Source: Bryobacterales bacterium
Lineage (GTDB): Bacteria > Acidobacteriota > Terriglobia > Bryobacterales > Bryobacteraceae
DNA length: 35,576 bases
Assembly: GCA_003167255.1 (NCBI GenBank)
Contig: PMTR01000090.1
Span: forward strand, 1,381-36,956
Direction: 5' to 3'
The notes below the pieces were generated by a model, which had not been told where the DNA came from, searched no databases, and worked only from the letters and a program-made list of their open reading frames with translations. A program made the position numbers and the translations under genes. This document shows positions 14,805-23,236 of this stretch, piece by piece (the stretch's first letter is position 1; the number at the start of each line of letters is the position of its first letter).

Positions 14805-15716
14805 TCAGGCTATCACCCGCACGTCCCCCTTGCCCCATACGGTTTGCCGGCCCACTCCCACCCACCGGGCCGCCCGCAGCCACGGCAGAAACTCCCCCAG
14901 CGAGCCTTCGTATTCGGCTTCTCCGGTGAAACCGCCCAGCGGATGCGTCTGCCCCGTGCGCCCGGATTTCCTTTCCACCTTCTCCCACTGCAGTTGGCAA
15001 TGGACCATGCGGATCTTCGCCGCGCGCTCGCCCACTTCCCGGAAGTCGATCTCCAGCGCCCCCGCCCCGTACAGCGCCCGTAGCGTGCTGATGCGGTCGC
15101 GCAGCCGGCCGAAAAGGACGGCGAACTCCGGGCGCTTCGCCAACGCCCCGCCGCTCTTCAGTTCCGTCGGGGTCAGGAAGCGTAGGTGCACGCGCTCTAC
15201 GCGTGCGATACTCGGATCGAGATCCGGGTCCAGGTCCGGATCGAGATTGAGAATCAGCGGCGGGCGGCCCACCTCATCCGCCCCGTCGTCCAGGTTGAGT
15301 TGTTCCACCCGTTCCAGCGAAACGCGGCCGTGGCCCGGCCCGATTCCCTGCGCCCCAAACGCGGCAAACGCCTCGCGAAAATACTTGAGCACCGGCGCGC
15401 GCAGGTCGAAGACATGCACGTCGAAACAGAAACGCTCGGCCCTGGCGATGGCGCGCCCGTCCAGACTGCCCGCCCGTAGCACGAAGGGCCGCGGCCAGTC
15501 CCCGAGGCCGCTGGGAGCTTTTCCCAGGCCGCTGCCCGGCTCGAACAGCCGCGCGTAGGCGGCCGGCGAAGCGGTGTCGCGCAGCACCATCCCCAAGGCG
15601 CCCCGGATCACGTTACCGCTTTTTCCCGCCGGAAAGTACACCGGGTCGATCGCCCGGAAATAAAACCGGAATCGGTAGAACTCGAATTGGGTCACCAGAC
15701 CGGCCGGGTCTTGCAC
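14805..15716 (-). CDS. cas6: Orphan Cas6-family CRISPR RNA endoribonuclease
   Basis: The 303-residue RAMP protein resembles the Cas6 family whose C-terminal domain is called CRISPR_Cas6. It has the [11 protein letters not shown] segment (180-190), the [14 protein letters not shown] helix, and the terminal [14 protein letters not shown]...[11 protein letters not shown], whose glycine-rich loop (287-297) binds crRNA. Cas6 cuts pre-crRNA at repeat stems. No array, other cas gene or interference complex lies in the window. The GTG at 15716 is chosen because AGGAG lies four bases upstream; the frame extends to 15911 but overlaps the csp leader. A small acidic tandem repeat, [10 protein letters not shown] (159-168), interrupts the middle. 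It could have a host RNA-processing role or serve a distant array. Confidence 0.8.
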
Positions 15717-15780
15717 TGTTCTCCTGTTGTATAATGGTATGGCATTTGACTCTTGTTTTCCGCTTGGCGACAGATCTAAG

Positions 15781-15814
15781 AGGGGGCTGCGTGAGTCCAT
15801 CCGCGCCCCCTTTT
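15781..15814 (+). terminator. Terminator-like hairpin in the csp leader
   Basis: AGGGGGC (15781-15787) pairs with GCCCCCT (15805-15811). The stem extends by three more pairs (GCG with CGC) after a one-base bulge and is followed by TTTT. It lies 60 bp upstream of the csp ATG in the same direction, so it may be an attenuator or thermo-responsive leader element, or the end of a short leader RNA. A TATAAT sits upstream at 15730-15735 without a convincing -35. Confidence 0.55.
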
Positions 15815-15870
15815 CCTGTTTCAGGGCGGTTTGGGTCGATGCATTTTCAGTAAAGAAGGAATATAGGCAG

Positions 15871-16074
15871 ATGAAAGAAAAAGGTACAGTGAAGTGGTTC
15901 AACGCGGCCAAGGGCTACGGTTTTATCCAGAGGGAGAATGGAGAAGATGTCTTCGTACACTTCTCGGCGATTCAGTCCGAGGGTTATAAGAGCCTGGATG
16001 AAGGCGCCAGAGTGGAGTTTGAGGTGACCAAAGGGCCCAAAGGCCTGCAGGCGACCAACGTCACAGTGGGCTGA
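15871..16074 (+). CDS. Cold-shock protein (CspA family)
   Basis: The 67-residue OB-fold protein has both RNA-binding motifs, KGYGFIQ (14-20, RNP1) and VFVHF (27-31, RNP2), and starts [11 protein letters not shown] as is usual. It binds single-stranded RNA or DNA and melts secondary structure, mostly during cold or growth transitions. ATG 15871 is preceded by AAGGA at 12-16 bp and the family start fits; the longer frame beginning at 15727 is leader. Length is typical. It is followed 62 bp on by infA in the same direction. The structured leader suggests post-transcriptional control, as known for csp genes. Confidence 0.95.
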
Positions 16075-18129: not shown

Positions 18130-20133
18130 TCACTCGATCAGACCTTGTTGGCGCAATGTTGCTAACCCCAAAAGGCATACTTTTGGGCCAGGGATTCCGG
18201 CAATGTCTTTAGGGAGTCGAAGCCCGCGGGCAATCTGCTTCGGGCCGCTTATGCCGTTGCACGATGCCAGAAGCTGCGCCGCGAGTGGACTGGGCCGCGT
18301 CACCTCTAGTTTCTGGTTGCCGATCTCACGCGTTGCGATCAAGACGCGGGAGGCCGGCACGGCAGCCAGGGGCTCACGGGTCCTCAGGCAGTCGAGGATC
18401 CGGTGATAGTCGGCGCCGAGCCGCACGATTCGGACGCCTGCCGCGAGGCGCGGTGCGCCAGCTTTTTTTCCAGGCTTGGATGGATTCTGGTTGAGCGCCA
18501 ATTCGAAATTCAGGAGTGCACGCAGGGGACCGCGATTTCTGGCGCGGCGGAGGCACCGGTTCCGGACAAATTCCAGAAGGTCCTGCGAAAACTCGCTGCG
18601 GGCATAATAGGGCGCCTCATCCGCACCCGCCGATTCCCGTCTGGTGGGCCGGCTTTCCTGGAGCCACAAGAGCCAGGCGTCGAAGACCTCCAGCAGACCG
18701 CCGTTATCCTGGTGCAGGGCCACCATCAGCCAGCGGTAGCGCGGAATGGAGTGTTGAATGAAATCCCGGAGTTCTTTTATATATCCGAGGTCAAGCGATG
18801 TGGGAACAGAGTAGAAGTTCGGGAAAATATCCGGGTGCGCCCGAATGATCTCCCGGTCCGCCGGATCCTGGCGCCAACCGTGGTGGGAAATATCGGAAAG
18901 GATGTCAGCCTGCTGCAGGCGGCCGCGATATTGCTCGTAAATCGGGGTCCCGGCCAAGGGAGCGAGGAGATGGAGCTGCAACCTGGCGGCGTCAAAGCGC
19001 GCCGCATCCATCAGAAAGTCGACGGTGTCCCTAAGGTCTTTCTTGGTCTCGTCCGGAAAACCGGTGATCAGTGAGACGGTGGTGTCGATACCGTGCCGGT
19101 CGGCGCAAGCGACGCGCGAAGCAGCTTCGCGAAGATCCAGGTTCTTATCGATCAGCCGCTGCAGGCGCGCCGAACCGGTTTCAATGCCGAAGAACATGCC
19201 CGCGCAGCCGGCTCGAGCCATCAAAGCGATCAACTCATCGTCAACGCAGTCGGTCCGCGCGCTGCAGTGCCACTGGAACCGTTCCCCCGAAGCCAGTAAG
19301 GCTTCACAGAACTCCACGACTCTCTTGCGATCGACCGTGAACATGTCGTGGATCAGCTCGAATCGGGTGTTTCCGTAAGTTCGGTGGATAATACGCATCT
19401 GCTCGATTACGCGCGCAGGCGACTTGAGGCGAAAACGGCGGCGGAAAAAATCGTTCGTCGAGCAAAACGTGCAGGCAAAGGGACAACCCCGGCCCAATTC
19501 CAGGGGCACGGCGTGGCATTCGCCCAGTTTGGGGTACTGGTCGAATGCCGGCATCGGAAGTTGATCGAGGTCGAGGACGACCGGGGCATTCGGGTTGCGA
19601 ACAATGCTTCCCCCGCTGCGGAATGTGACTCCCGGAATTTCGCGCAAGCGGCGCTGATCGGGGAGAGCCGCGAGCACCAGGGGAAGGGTCTCGTCGGCTT
19701 CACCGCGCACAATGAAATCGATGAAGGGAAACGCCTGCAAGGTAGCGGCGTCCACCACGGAAGCCTGTGGGCCGCCTAACATGACGACGCTTTGGGGATG
19801 GGACCTTTTCAACTCCCGGGCGATGCGGATGGTCAACGGATAGGTACTGCAGATCGTGCTGAAGCCACAGATATCAAAGGATCGGGAGGCGAGCTCCCGC
19901 GCCACGAAGGAGCAAAAATCCAGACCGCGGCGGTAAGCAGCCGACCGGAGATAGCGGTAATAGGTCTGGTTTAGATCGACAACCTCAACTGTGATTCCAT
20001 GCTGGCCGAGGATGGCGGCCAGGGTCAGAATTCCGATCGGGGCTTGTTCGGAGATCAGTCGCACGGCCTCGCTCTCCGCCACCTGGGGATCGAATTCGGT
20101 TACGGTTGGCGAACTGACCAGGCAGATGCGCAT
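18130..20133 (-). CDS. Cobalamin-binding-type radical SAM enzyme with winged-helix-like C-terminus
   Basis: The product has 667 residues from ATG 20133, preceded by GGAG (a TTG at 20160 is a weaker alternative). Residues 1-160 look like the B12-binding fold found before class-B radical SAM methyltransferases (APIGILTLAAIL, VVMLGGPQAS, FIVRGEADETLP); the DxHxxG base-off motif is not apparent, as is usual in this group. The cluster motif CPFACTFC (Cys217, Cys221, Cys224) binds the 4Fe-4S. The glycine-rich SAM region follows, with FFGIETGSARL and LITGFPDET. Residues ~560-667 are outside the core and end SPLAAQLLASCNGISGPKQI...LGLATLRQQGLIE, reminiscent of PqqD-like peptide-binding domains (weak resemblance). 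Twenty-seven bases upstream ends a 77-residue peptide gene. Substrate unknown: peptide, lipid or small molecule. Confidence 0.88.
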   Translation of the reverse strand: MRICLVSSPTVTEFDPQVAESEAVRLISEQAPIGILTLAAILGQHGITVEVVDLNQTYYRYLRSAAYRRGLDFCSFVARELASRSFDICGFSTICSTYPLTIRIARELKRSHPQSVVMLGGPQASVVDAATLQAFPFIDFIVRGEADETLPLVLAALPDQRRLREIPGVTFRSGGSIVRNPNAPVVLDLDQLPMPAFDQYPKLGECHAVPLELGRGCPFACTFCSTNDFFRRRFRLKSPARVIEQMRIIHRTYGNTRFELIHDMFTVDRKRVVEFCEALLASGERFQWHCSARTDCVDDELIALMARAGCAGMFFGIETGSARLQRLIDKNLDLREAASRVACADRHGIDTTVSLITGFPDETKKDLRDTVDFLMDAARFDAARLQLHLLAPLAGTPIYEQYRGRLQQADILSDISHHGWRQDPADREIIRAHPDIFPNFYSVPTSLDLGYIKELRDFIQHSIPRYRWLMVALHQDNGGLLEVFDAWLLWLQESRPTRRESAGADEAPYYARSEFSQDLLEFVRNRCLRRARNRGPLRALLNFELALNQNPSKPGKKAGAPRLAAGVRIVRLGADYHRILDCLRTREPLAAVPASRVLIATREIGNQKLEVTRPSPLAAQLLASCNGISGPKQIARGLRLPKDIAGIPGPKVCLLGLATLRQQGLIE

Positions 20134-20160
20134 AATCTCCGGCCGCGGGCGGGCGCACAA

Positions 20161-20394
20161 TTATTTCTTGCCTTTTTCGTCTTCGCCGTTGCCGTTGCCG
20201 GGGATGGGGACGCCGTTGGTCACGCCGGTGATCACGTGGATAGCGCCACCGAACTTTGCAAAGGTGGCGTTGGCTAATGGTTCCAGTGCCACTTCGAGTT
20301 TCTTTACGTCTGCCGGGGACAGTCCCCACTTGCTCGGGACCAGCACAATCAGCTCTTTGCGATTCGCGGAGATAGTCTTCTTCTTGGTCGCCAT
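20161..20394 (-). CDS. 77-aa peptide gene upstream of radical SAM enzyme (possible RiPP precursor)
   Basis: The product has 77 residues. AAGGAG sits seven bases ahead of ATG 20394, the strongest ribosome site on this side, and a near-consensus promoter lies about 33 bp upstream of the ATG. The N-terminal two-thirds is charged and helical-looking (ANRKELIVLVPSKWGLSPAD, then VKKLEVALEPLANATFAKFG). The rest is GAIHVITGVTNGVPIPGNGN, ending GEDEKGKK. It lacks Cys, so thioether (sactipeptide-type) cross-links from Cys are excluded. No signal peptide or membrane helix. I recognise no family. The layout (small leader-plus-core-like protein, then radical SAM 27 bp on) matches RiPP precursor/enzyme pairs, but a small partner protein is equally possible. 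No transporter or protease gene follows. Confidence 0.72.
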   Translation of the reverse strand: MATKKKTISANRKELIVLVPSKWGLSPADVKKLEVALEPLANATFAKFGGAIHVITGVTNGVPIPGNGNGEDEKGKK

Positions 20395-20426
20395 AGCGGC
20401 TCCTTCTAAATATGAGATCGCCCTCC

Positions 20427-20455
20427 ACTATACATAAACCGCATCCCGGTTACAA
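20427..20455 (-). promoter_or_regulatory. Strong sigma-70 promoter of the peptide/radical SAM operon
   Basis: On the minus strand TTGTAA (20455-20450) and TATAGT (20432-20427) are separated by exactly 17 bp. It lies in the 79-bp gap between the kinase stop and the peptide ATG, so the peptide and radical SAM genes have their own promoter and are not simply a tail of the kinase transcript. Confidence 0.65.
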
Positions 20456-20473: not shown

Positions 20474-23236
20474 TCACTTTTGACCCGTGCCCGTTTGCAT
20501 CATCCAGAGGTTGCCCTTCACCTCCAGAAGATTGAAAGCCAGCTTGTCTGCCGCAACCGAGAGCCCCAGCCTGTCCAGCCCCATGTGCATGATGGAGAGC
20601 CCCGTGCTATGGAAATGCTGAATGGCCAGCGGCGGTCCCACCGGCTTCCTGGTGGCCGGATCCACAGCTTGCTTCCAGATACATCCAAAGCCGTCTCTCC
20701 TGGAATAGAAGTAGACAAGATTTCCGCGCTGAGACCAGCGGGGCCGGTCGTCCCATGACGCACCGTCCGTGACAGGTATCCACTGGTCTTCGGAAACTGC
20801 CGCCCCGTCCCGAAGCGGAATGGCGAAAATCCGTGTGTGACTTGGATCGATGTGCGCCAGTACGCTGATCCAGGCCCCGTCGGGAGCGAATTGAGCCTGG
20901 TCGATGCTGTACCGGGCGGACTGCGCAATCCTGGCCTTCCGGCCCGTAGCTACGCTGAATGAGCCGACGGCTCCGGGTTGGCCGTGGATGTAGATGATCC
21001 GGCTGCCATCCGGCGACCAGTCGACTGGCACGCCGCAGTCGTCACACACCTTTTCGGGAACGCTCGAGTCTGGCGACAGGCGGGCATCGACGACATAAAT
21101 CGGTTGAGTGGCCTGCCCGGAGATGGTGTACGCCACCTTCCTTCCGTCGCCGGAAATCACTGGCGACGCCTCGTCCAGAGGAGTCGAGGTCAGAGCTGCC
21201 TCCCGCCCGGTTTTCAAATCTTTGATCCACACGTCCCGATTTCCAAGCCGTCCGGACGTAAACACCAGTTTTGTGCCGTCATGTGAGATCGAAGGCGTGG
21301 CTTCGTAGGCATCGCCTTCGGTGATACGCCGCATTTCGGTGCCTGCTTGCCCGCGCCCATCAATTGGCAGGAGCCAGATATTATTGGCAAATCGCAAACT
21401 GGCGAAGACCACCCGGCCGCCTGTGCTCGGGAAAGGCTCCGCATCCAATCCCGTGCCGAATGTCAAACGCTCCAGACTGTCCGCGGCTTTCCAGTTTCCC
21501 CTCGAGATGGGTATCTGGTAGATGCTCCGCGCGTTGATCATTATCCCGGCGTTGGACTCGTTTGCGGAAAAGACGATTTGTTCGCCTCGGAAGCCGCCCG
21601 GGCCCATGTAAACCGAAATCGCCTTGCGGCGAAACACGGCAAAAGCCCCGGTCTTCACCGCTGGTTCATTGGCTTGGATTTCTGAACCAACCCGCGCGAC
21701 CCACCAATCCGGTTCTTCCTGGGCCGAGCGAGTGCCCTGAAACAGGATGTGCTTGCCGTCGGGCGTCCAGATCGGATAGCGGGCGTCGGCAAAGCCCGGT
21801 TGGACCTGCACCGGTTTGCCGCCGGTGGCGGGCACGATGTAAACCTTACCGGACGGCGCGTAATAGTTGGGTTCGCCGATCCAGTACACGATCCACATGC
21901 TGTCCGGCGAGAACCTCGGATTCTGGCCGCCGGGCGCAATAAGCCGTTCCTGACCACTCAGGGTGGGGACGGCATAGATGCCGCCGCCGCTCCGATAGGA
22001 ATGGAAGGCAATCCGGCTGCCATCGGGCGAGAACGAAGGCGACTCCTCGTCCGCGGGATCTCGCGTCAAGCGGGTCGGCTCGCCGCCGCTGACGGGCTGC
22101 ACCCAGATGTCCAGGTTGCCTTCGCCGGCACGATCCGAGGCATAGGCCAGGAGTTCTCCGTTCGGCGATAGAGCCGGATCTACGGTAAGTCCGGAATCCC
22201 ATGTCAATCTTGTCAATCGGACCAGCGGAGCGGACACACCGGACCGTCCCAGCCACCAGGTGGCAGCCAGCGCGCATAGCAGCAGCAGACTTCCGGCCAC
22301 CATCCGCCACCGGCTGAAGCGTTGCTCAAGGGCTTGCTGCGCCTGACCCAACTTGCCGGCATCGCTCCTTTCTCTCAGGTTCTCCAGCAGGATCTTGAGG
22401 TCAGCCATCGTCTGGAGTCTTCTGCCGAGATCCTTCCGCAGGCACAGGCCGATCACCTCTCCCAGTTCGGGGGGAATGCCGTGCACCAACTCGCTCGCGG
22501 CCTTTGGCTCTTCGCGTAGCACAGCCGCCAAAATCGACATTTTTGTCTTGCCCTGAAATGCCCGCCGCCCGGTCACCATTTCGTAAAGGACCGAGCCAAA
22601 TGAGAAGATGTCGGAGCGCCCGTCGACGCTCTTGCCTTCCACCTGTTCGGGCGACATGTAGGCCACCGTTCCGACCACCTTGCCGCCGGTGGTTTGGGGT
22701 TCGCCATCGCGATCCAGACTCTGCGTGCTGGCGAACTCGCCGATCTCCGCGGTGGAGGTTTGTTTGGCTAAACCGAAATCCAGCACTTTGATGTTGCCGT
22801 TCGCGGCGCTGATCATGATATTGGCGGGCTTGATGTCACGATGGACCAGACCGACAACATGAGCTGCCGTCAGCGCGTCGGCGATCTGGACCGCGTATGA
22901 CAGCGCCTCGCCGGGAAGCAACCTTCGGTTATGGATCAAATGCGCGAGAGTCTTGCCGCGCACATATTCCATTGCGATGAAGTCCAGGCCGTCGGCATTG
23001 TTGATTTCATAGATGGTGACGATGTTGGGGTGATTCAGCGAAGCCAGCACATGCGCCTCGCGCTGGAAGCGGACCATATAGTCGGCATCGTTGGCTAGCT
23101 CGGCCGGAAGAATCTTTAATGCGACGTCGCGGCCCAGTTTGATGTCGCGGGCGCGGTACACCTCTCCCATTCCTCCTGCGCCGAGCGGCGCAAGGACCTC
23201 GTAGTAGCCGAGGCGAGTCCCGATAGAGATGGACAT
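20474..23236 (-). CDS. Transmembrane Ser/Thr protein kinase with TolB-like propeller
   Basis: The product has 920 residues. The kinase domain (about 11-290) is complete: G-loop GAGGMGEVY (19-27), Lys41 in VALK, Glu60, HRDIKPAN (132-139), DFG (153-155) and MSPEQ as the APE-equivalent. A single membrane helix (about 311-331) follows. The outside half (about 340-910) has repeated PD40/TolB-type blades with SPDGSRIAF-like phrases such as SFSPDGSRIAFHSY, SHDGTKLVFTS and SPDGSRIIYIHG. Kinases of this build are common in Solibacter-type genomes and presumably sense something periplasmic and phosphorylate cytoplasmic partners; ligand and targets are unknown. It is transcribed alone on the minus strand, upstream of the peptide/radical SAM operon. 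Confidence 0.93.
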   Translation of the reverse strand: MSISIGTRLGYYEVLAPLGAGGMGEVYRARDIKLGRDVALKILPAELANDADYMVRFQREAHVLASLNHPNIVTIYEINNADGLDFIAMEYVRGKTLAHLIHNRRLLPGEALSYAVQIADALTAAHVVGLVHRDIKPANIMISAANGNIKVLDFGLAKQTSTAEIGEFASTQSLDRDGEPQTTGGKVVGTVAYMSPEQVEGKSVDGRSDIFSFGSVLYEMVTGRRAFQGKTKMSILAAVLREEPKAASELVHGIPPELGEVIGLCLRKDLGRRLQTMADLKILLENLRERSDAGKLGQAQQALEQRFSRWRMVAGSLLLLCALAATWWLGRSGVSAPLVRLTRLTWDSGLTVDPALSPNGELLAYASDRAGEGNLDIWVQPVSGGEPTRLTRDPADEESPSFSPDGSRIAFHSYRSGGGIYAVPTLSGQERLIAPGGQNPRFSPDSMWIVYWIGEPNYYAPSGKVYIVPATGGKPVQVQPGFADARYPIWTPDGKHILFQGTRSAQEEPDWWVARVGSEIQANEPAVKTGAFAVFRRKAISVYMGPGGFRGEQIVFSANESNAGIMINARSIYQIPISRGNWKAADSLERLTFGTGLDAEPFPSTGGRVVFASLRFANNIWLLPIDGRGQAGTEMRRITEGDAYEATPSISHDGTKLVFTSGRLGNRDVWIKDLKTGREAALTSTPLDEASPVISGDGRKVAYTISGQATQPIYVVDARLSPDSSVPEKVCDDCGVPVDWSPDGSRIIYIHGQPGAVGSFSVATGRKARIAQSARYSIDQAQFAPDGAWISVLAHIDPSHTRIFAIPLRDGAAVSEDQWIPVTDGASWDDRPRWSQRGNLVYFYSRRDGFGCIWKQAVDPATRKPVGPPLAIQHFHSTGLSIMHMGLDRLGLSVAADKLAFNLLEVKGNLWMMQTGTGQK

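Follow-up and report, generated by a model that had tools for sequence, protein, structure and literature searches.

A candidate RiPP cassette in Bryobacterales: a small peptide gene beside an ApyD-like B12-binding radical SAM enzyme

INTRODUCTION

A small open reading frame (ORF) placed directly before the gene for a B12-binding radical S-adenosylmethionine (SAM) enzyme raises the question of whether its product is the substrate of that enzyme. Such a pair lies on the minus strand of a 35,576-nt stretch from Bryobacterales bacterium (GCA_003167255.1, contig PMTR01000090.1, positions 1,381-36,956, forward), which as a whole is called the window below, and in which the gene order is PD40 Ser/Thr kinase, 77-aa ORF, 667-aa B12-binding radical SAM enzyme. 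A sequence-only reading of this DNA had proposed a cassette for a ribosomally synthesized and post-translationally modified peptide (RiPP). After comparison with relatives and curated families we find it probable that the locus is a compact RiPP cassette, in which the 77-aa product is the precursor and is modified by a B12/radical SAM enzyme bearing a domain like a RiPP recognition element (RRE).

RESULTS AND DISCUSSION

The peptide and enzyme genes

20161-20394, minus strand: putative RiPP precursor, 77 aa, ATG start (coding score)
20400-20405, minus strand: Shine-Dalgarno site (AAGGAG), 5 nt ahead of the peptide start codon (sequence inspection)
20427-20455, minus strand: promoter-like TTGTAA-17-TATAGT (present, at chance level)
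18130-20133, minus strand: ApyD-like B12-binding radical SAM enzyme, 667 aa (NF050148, 398.7 bits; Pfam)
19675-20043, minus strand: B12-binding domain, enzyme residues 31-153 (PF02310, 4.8e-14)
19012-19500, minus strand: Radical_SAM core, enzyme residues 212-374 (PF04055, 1.9e-20)
18133-18468, minus strand: putative C-terminal RRE/PqqD-like domain, enzyme residues 556-667 (matched in homologues, not in the window copy)

The sequence-only reading described a 77-aa gene with a strong Shine-Dalgarno site, 27 bp before the enzyme, and both ORFs and the site were confirmed. The enzyme ORF (18130-20160) would encode 676 aa from a TTG; from the ATG at 20133, 27 bp past the peptide stop, it encodes 667 aa. 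Codon usage marks the peptide as coding: its score of 0.352 per codon is higher than that of every one of 107 length-matched open stretches read in a wrong frame (maximum 0.203) and equals or exceeds that of 75% of 75 chunks from ten long window ORFs. These ten ORFs, assumed to be genes, served as the reference, and the wrong-frame stretches were cut from them. The enzyme scored 0.118 per codon, well under the median of the window gene chunks (0.291), and may have been acquired from elsewhere. The near-consensus promoter claimed earlier is present (9/12) but by itself carries no evidential value, since one such site was observed where shuffles lead one to expect 0.7; it was rejected as evidence for the cassette.

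Distribution and pairing

Homologues of the enzyme were found in 7 of 396 genomes of the phylum (E up to 1e-80), 11 of 399 of the class (1e-90), 6 of 200 of the window's own family (1e-60) and 14 of 250 of one family (1e-70). These samples overlap, and those of the phylum, own family and class include the window's genome. The distribution is patchy, and pairs like that of the window are likewise scattered over a minority of the related bacteria. Within the window's genome, the B12-radical SAM protein closest to the enzyme is 32% identical to it.

Pairing filter. A pair was called where an ATG-initiated ORF was 55-130 aa long, had a Shine-Dalgarno match of 4 or more and ended between 210 bp before and 12 bp after the enzyme start. 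The set consisted of the window and 21 fetched loci. Two of these were dropped, L053 because the assembly interrupts its enzyme ORF and L058 because it lies at a contig edge. Of the 20 countable loci, 17 had such an ORF directly before the enzyme, compared with 7 of 92 control genes (Fisher p 6e-12, a value that treats related loci as independent). The controls were the other genes of the same loci; matches lying mostly within a called gene were removed, from the controls only. Enzyme homologues usually occurring without the peptide would have spoken against the proposal, and this was not the pattern found.

Matches on rhizobial and Streptomyces plasmids (31-35% identity, three opened) were in other gene settings and were not used as pairs, nor were two distant archaeal loci from a scan of genome contigs.

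Relatives of the enzyme

The B12-binding-like N-terminal domain and CxxxCxxC radical SAM core that had been read from the sequence are both matched by Pfam, and the three cysteines (C217, C221 and C224, residues 217-224) are invariant in 17 of 17 aligned enzymes. The top NCBIfam model by a wide margin is NF050148 (ApyD), at 398.7 bits, well under its cut-off of 750; it aligns to residues 30-448, leaving the C-terminal part of the enzyme unaligned. BchE (151 bits) and HpnJ (144.8 bits) come next, and TIGR03975 (rSAM_ocin_1), a RiPP radical SAM C-methyltransferase model, matches at 131.1 bits, below its cut-off of 281.85. None of 25 NCBIfam models, among 28 matched at E up to 1, reached its own cut-off. 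As to whether the enzyme belongs to a lipid- or cofactor-modifying family, the nearest curated relative is thus a RiPP enzyme, with BchE and HpnJ weaker.

ApyD is described as a B12-radical SAM enzyme with an RRE, which converts a Tyr of its RiPP precursor to beta-methyltyrosine (PMC10635010, PMC11117315), and the sequence-diverse small precursors with which it is paired are a further likeness to the window enzyme. In the aminopyruvatide (apy) class, as described, the gene for a multinuclear non-heme iron-dependent oxidative enzyme (MNIO) defines the class, and the precursor has a central CBX2-3G motif and a C-terminal Asp (PMC11117315). The window peptide, in contrast, has no Cys and ends in Lys, and no MNIO or cytochrome P450 was found in the kinase or among eight neighbouring ORFs (11.3-27.5 kb, Pfam at 1e-3, larger ORFs only). 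Because the ApyD cut-off is not reached, the peptide lacks the precursor motif and no MNIO gene was found among the ORFs scanned, the enzyme is not counted as an ApyD equivalog, nor the cassette as one of the aminopyruvatide class.

PbsB is described as a B12-radical SAM enzyme that cross-links ortho-Tyr in biphenomycin-like RiPPs after an MNIO has acted (PMC12257519). It acts on a small precursor, as the window enzyme would on the present reading, but its described targets are aromatic motifs. The window peptide lacks a motif of this kind, and the neighbouring ORFs scanned included no MNIO. Literature searches (titles and abstract openings among the entries listed, limited by the terms and the collection) showed no description of the window cassette. 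It seems to represent a branch, so far uncharacterised, of a familiar type of natural-product pathway, that of RiPPs whose B12-radical SAM enzyme carries a fused RRE.

The C-terminal domain

The enzyme had been said to end in a PqqD-like region. This is borne out in its homologues: of 17 corresponding domains, 8 match PqqD and 7 match NGO1945_C (Pfam), while the window copy itself is unmatched. On the concern that the region might match a domain that does not bind peptides, these homologues, though not the window copy, speak against it. NGO1945_C presumably belongs to RRE-type partners. The PqqD family, PF05402, is said in one report to include many RREs besides PqqD (PMC12710340).

Sister peptides

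Peptide types differ from lineage to lineage. The largest set, group A (G316, G476, G516, G534, G567, G495 and G583, with G544 related), has the pattern EREWARALARH...LTxxQxxELRxAFENTLxTNMGC followed by a few variable residues, and occurs in one or two copies. By reading, the tail after the conserved '...NMG' is short and variable, and some copies begin with a DRRxxxRGALxxGG stretch, which we take to resemble a twin-arginine signal. A second pattern, LxxKIPxTEEGxxFL...TTYxLxxRxEQEG, is common to G372, G239, G284 and G643, while the window, G580, G549, G788, G696, G731 and G795 each have a distinct peptide of their own. Several loci hold two paralogous copies, and the G731 peptide (L057:7204-7587) contains a tandem duplication of one unit (SELSEEDKAELLEFLDPV...LEIRLERTN). 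In L053 (G583), two group A peptide ORFs are open alongside the interrupted enzyme ORF.

The window peptide has no Cys, as noted earlier, and no Tyr, two Phe and one Trp; the absence of Cys is not general, for several sister peptides contain it. Single-sequence AlphaFold2 gave a strand-helix-strand model of low confidence (mean predicted local distance difference test score, pLDDT, 55.9), with predicted strand 15-19, helix 27-48, strand 52-56 and a polar Gly/Asn/Pro tail at 57-77. The peptide matched no family in NCBIfam or Pfam, curated leader models included, at E up to 10. Of the cassette peptides scanned, ten against NCBIfam and nine against Pfam, weak matches below the cut-offs were all that appeared (best 0.015 and 0.0079, both from G731).

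Selection was measured in nine loci. In 18 close pairs from two groups the ratio of non-synonymous to synonymous substitution rates (dN/dS) of the peptides was 0.10-0.73, all below 1, and that of the enzyme in the same pairs 0.07-0.21. The peptide value was above the enzyme's in 16 of the 18 pairs; in the two exceptions, G316-G516 and G495-G516, synonymous sites are close to saturation. The peptides are therefore constrained protein genes that mostly diverge faster than the enzyme.

Motif search. An ungapped search of ten peptides (nine whole and one G731 repeat unit) was compared with 20 composition shuffles. It initially beat all 20 at three widths, but the shuffles had been given fewer restarts; with equal restarts, 0, 0 and 2 of the 20 shuffles attained the score at widths 14, 18 and 24, numbers that became 1, 2 and 6 when the two group A peptides were removed. 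A motif common to the peptide types is thus unconvincing once group A is left out, and we claim no homology between them.

Two distant loci contain candidates of other kinds. In G122 (L027:16260-16526) an ORF like a nitrile hydratase leader peptide (NHLP) lies upstream of two B12-radical SAM-like genes; this ORF, from the cluster of a distant relative, matches NHase_alpha at 1e-5, just below the cut-off. In G398 (L026:12441-12897), about 3 kb after a distant enzyme relative, there are two ORFs with identical N-termini (MAEKDVQIMPINSNILTGITIDELEDRLEMQLLGLFDVLALSQ), followed by a gene reading like a second radical SAM protein, an arrangement that resembles another RiPP cluster.

Interpretation

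The RiPP reading is supported by ApyD as the best family, the RRE-like domains of the homologues, the pairing and the coding peptides, and further by the paralogous copies, the G731 duplication, the variable group A tail and the NHLP-like ORF of G122. Under it, the 77-aa peptide would be precursor and substrate; the PqqD-like C-terminal domain would bind it, with the N-terminal strand (ELIVLVP) as the probable contact; and a residue further along, nearer the C-terminus, would be modified by the B12/radical SAM core. The likeliest reaction would be C-methylation, at an unactivated carbon of either the C-terminal strand or the Gly/Asn/Pro tail.

Several results weigh on the other side. Three of the 20 loci fail the pairing rule, namely the distant loci G398 and G122 and also G731, whose 127-aa ORF shares 4 bp with the start of the enzyme gene and has no Shine-Dalgarno match by that rule; in G580, one of the 17, the match begins at an internal Met of the ORF. 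No homologue of the window peptide was found in 60 other genomes, the four weak matches all lying within long ORFs, so that this peptide rests on position and coding signal and not on conservation of its own. The enzyme also resembles BchE, HpnJ and others. Its C-terminal domain matches no Pfam family at E up to 10, and the profile search of this region against solved structures found no RRE. A single-sequence model of the domain was poor (pLDDT 47.8; a helix, two strands and three helices), and Foldseek with it was uninformative, the best match having E 2.7. Neither a protease nor an exporter nor another modifying enzyme was found to recur in three or more loci, with a gene caller that misses most small ORFs. 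A leader-removing protease or an exporter nearby is no strict requirement for a RiPP cassette. The best solved-structure profile match, an unrelated ubiquitin ligase (E 0.2), was set aside, and a lasso-peptide leader-binding protein at Foldseek rank 2 (E 3.4) was not counted.

In a variant of the RiPP reading the peptide is modified otherwise than by methylation, through a carbon-carbon or other cross-link or through oxidation. The joining of two ortho-tyrosines by the B12-radical SAM enzyme of the pbs pathway, as described for that pathway (PMC12257519), is a precedent. The nearest curated relative, ApyD, is however a methyltransferase, and a peptide with neither Tyr nor Cys, two Phe and one Trp offers few candidates for a pbs-like aromatic cross-link; we hold this variant to be rather unlikely.

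The RiPP reading would add a branch of Acidobacteriota RiPP-type enzymes whose precursors, among those scanned, match no Pfam or NCBIfam leader family, and the divergence of the peptides from locus to locus supplies natural variants to test.

The upstream kinase

20474-23236, minus strand: Ser/Thr protein kinase of 920 aa with a kinase domain and a PD40 beta-propeller (Pfam)

The gene upstream of the peptide matches Pkinase (3.8e-50) and PD40 (3.2e-40), and, by reading, a membrane span appears to separate the kinase domain from the propeller. A same-strand PD40 kinase is directly upstream in 9 of the 22 loci (window, G372, G239, G284, G643, G549, G696, G788 and G731); in G580 a kinase piece is on the opposite strand. 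Apart from the enzyme, it is one of two larger genes recurring in at least three of the 22 loci, the other being common to three closely related loci. The window's genome contains 50 matches to the window kinase at E up to 1e-20, which makes chance adjacency in nine loci unlikely, although four of the nine are of one genus. In the enzyme tree group A, which has no kinase, forms one group (100/99), with the window enzyme nearby (87/94, below the tool's star).

Lanthipeptide-type clusters

The closest full-length kinase in the window's own genome is 40% identical to the window kinase. Directly after it (L092:476-3779, contig C75, minus) come an 80-aa Cys-containing ORF with a strong Shine-Dalgarno site and then APH, HopA1 and LanC-like genes. 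The class V lanthipeptide cacaoidin is described as dehydrated by an APH-like kinase and a HopA1-like lyase (PMC9486802); the LanC-like gene is additional in the clusters of the L092 type.

HopA1-family genes were found in 23 of 200 genomes of the family. APH, HopA1 and LanC genes occurred together in 17 of 21 opened loci (L092 among them; 21 of the 29 matches listed were opened), and in 9 of these 17 full clusters a PD40 kinase was directly upstream on the same strand: L092 and, in related genomes, L125, L126, L127, L132, L133, L135, L137 and L140. Eight full clusters had no such kinase; for two of them, L136 and L138, the upstream sequence covered less than 1 kb. At least five of the nine kinase-led clusters (L127, L133, L135, L137 and L092) have in between a Shine-Dalgarno-led, Cys-containing ORF, the candidate precursor, with GWSxPP near its C-terminus; in the others the search rule gave no ORF or a doubtful one. 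These clusters share with the window cassette the genome, the family and often a PD40 kinase directly upstream, but their modifying enzymes differ and their kinases form a separate tree group. PD40 receptor-like kinases thus stand beside RiPP-type genes of two chemistries within one bacterial family.

Kinase trees. The first tree had nine cassette kinases and the later two had seven, two near-copies being left out. In the first, the cassette kinases came together, but among them fell L063, an own-genome kinase that later proved to stand beside the lanthipeptide genes. In the second, with own-genome controls, both RiPP-linked sets formed one clade. That joint clade was gone once 16 closer kinases had been added. 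The final tree combined these 16, labelled 'non', with 6 kinases of the own genome and 7 of the 9 from the lanthipeptide side; 13 of the 16, all but L177-L179, had their downstream genes examined. The cassette kinases group together with support 58 when the window kinase is included and 100 when it is not.

Kinases matching at 1e-140 were found in 43 of 150 genomes of the family. Downstream of 20 highly window-like kinases, nearly all of them the best among the 69 matches listed, no radical SAM, HopA1 or LanC gene was found, and there was one weak APH match of 59 residues; only these kinds of gene were sought, and six of the stretches were shorter than 4.3 kb. An exclusive link of the kinase subfamily to RiPP genes was therefore rejected. 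Given this result and the loss of the joint clade, the kinase is best regarded as having been recruited from a large kinase subfamily and passed down as a neighbour inside each cassette type.

The cassette could nevertheless be extended into a kinase-linked signalling or sensing unit, with the modified peptide as the ligand, or as the product monitored by the PD40 propeller. The nine adjacencies, the single tree group of cassette kinases and the same large subfamily preceding nine of the 17 full lanthipeptide-type clusters opened all point this way; the empty downstream stretches of the most window-like kinases, the dissolved joint clade and the group A loci without a kinase point away from it. 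We consider such a unit possible but doubtful, and any signalling role of the kinase is speculation. Slightly more doubtful still is the fullest form of the idea, an Acidobacteriota RiPP family with hypervariable small-domain-like precursors (some with a twin-arginine-like N-terminus), a fused-RRE enzyme and a branch in which the kinase senses or regulates, making a peptide-and-receptor-kinase signalling unit. The adjacency makes testable the question of what the abundant PD40 kinases respond to.

Alternatives to a modified peptide

The small protein might instead be a partner of the enzyme, such as an activator, a chaperone or a substrate-delivery subunit, with the enzyme modifying something else. 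A folded partner would fit the low-confidence strand-helix-strand model, which differs from a flexible leader plus core, and the C-terminal stretch of the G372-G239-G284 peptides, by reading among their best conserved parts. The fast divergence between loci, the two copies in several of them and the RRE-like domain already fused to the enzyme all speak against this explanation, and we judge it improbable. That an orphan ORF merely happens to precede an ordinary lipid- or cofactor-metabolism enzyme of the B12-radical SAM kind would suit the weaker BchE and HpnJ matches and a peptide without database relatives, but the pairing, the purifying selection on the sister peptides and the RRE-like domain of the homologues leave very little room for it.

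Other features of the window

A CRISPR_Cas6 match (9.4e-16) falls in the ORF at 14808-15911, minus strand; other Cas genes were not searched for. On the 3' side of the enzyme, on the opposite strand, is an AAA/ClpB-like ORF with a response-regulator domain, and 5.3 kb upstream of the peptide there is a gene resembling those for gamma-glutamyltranspeptidases.

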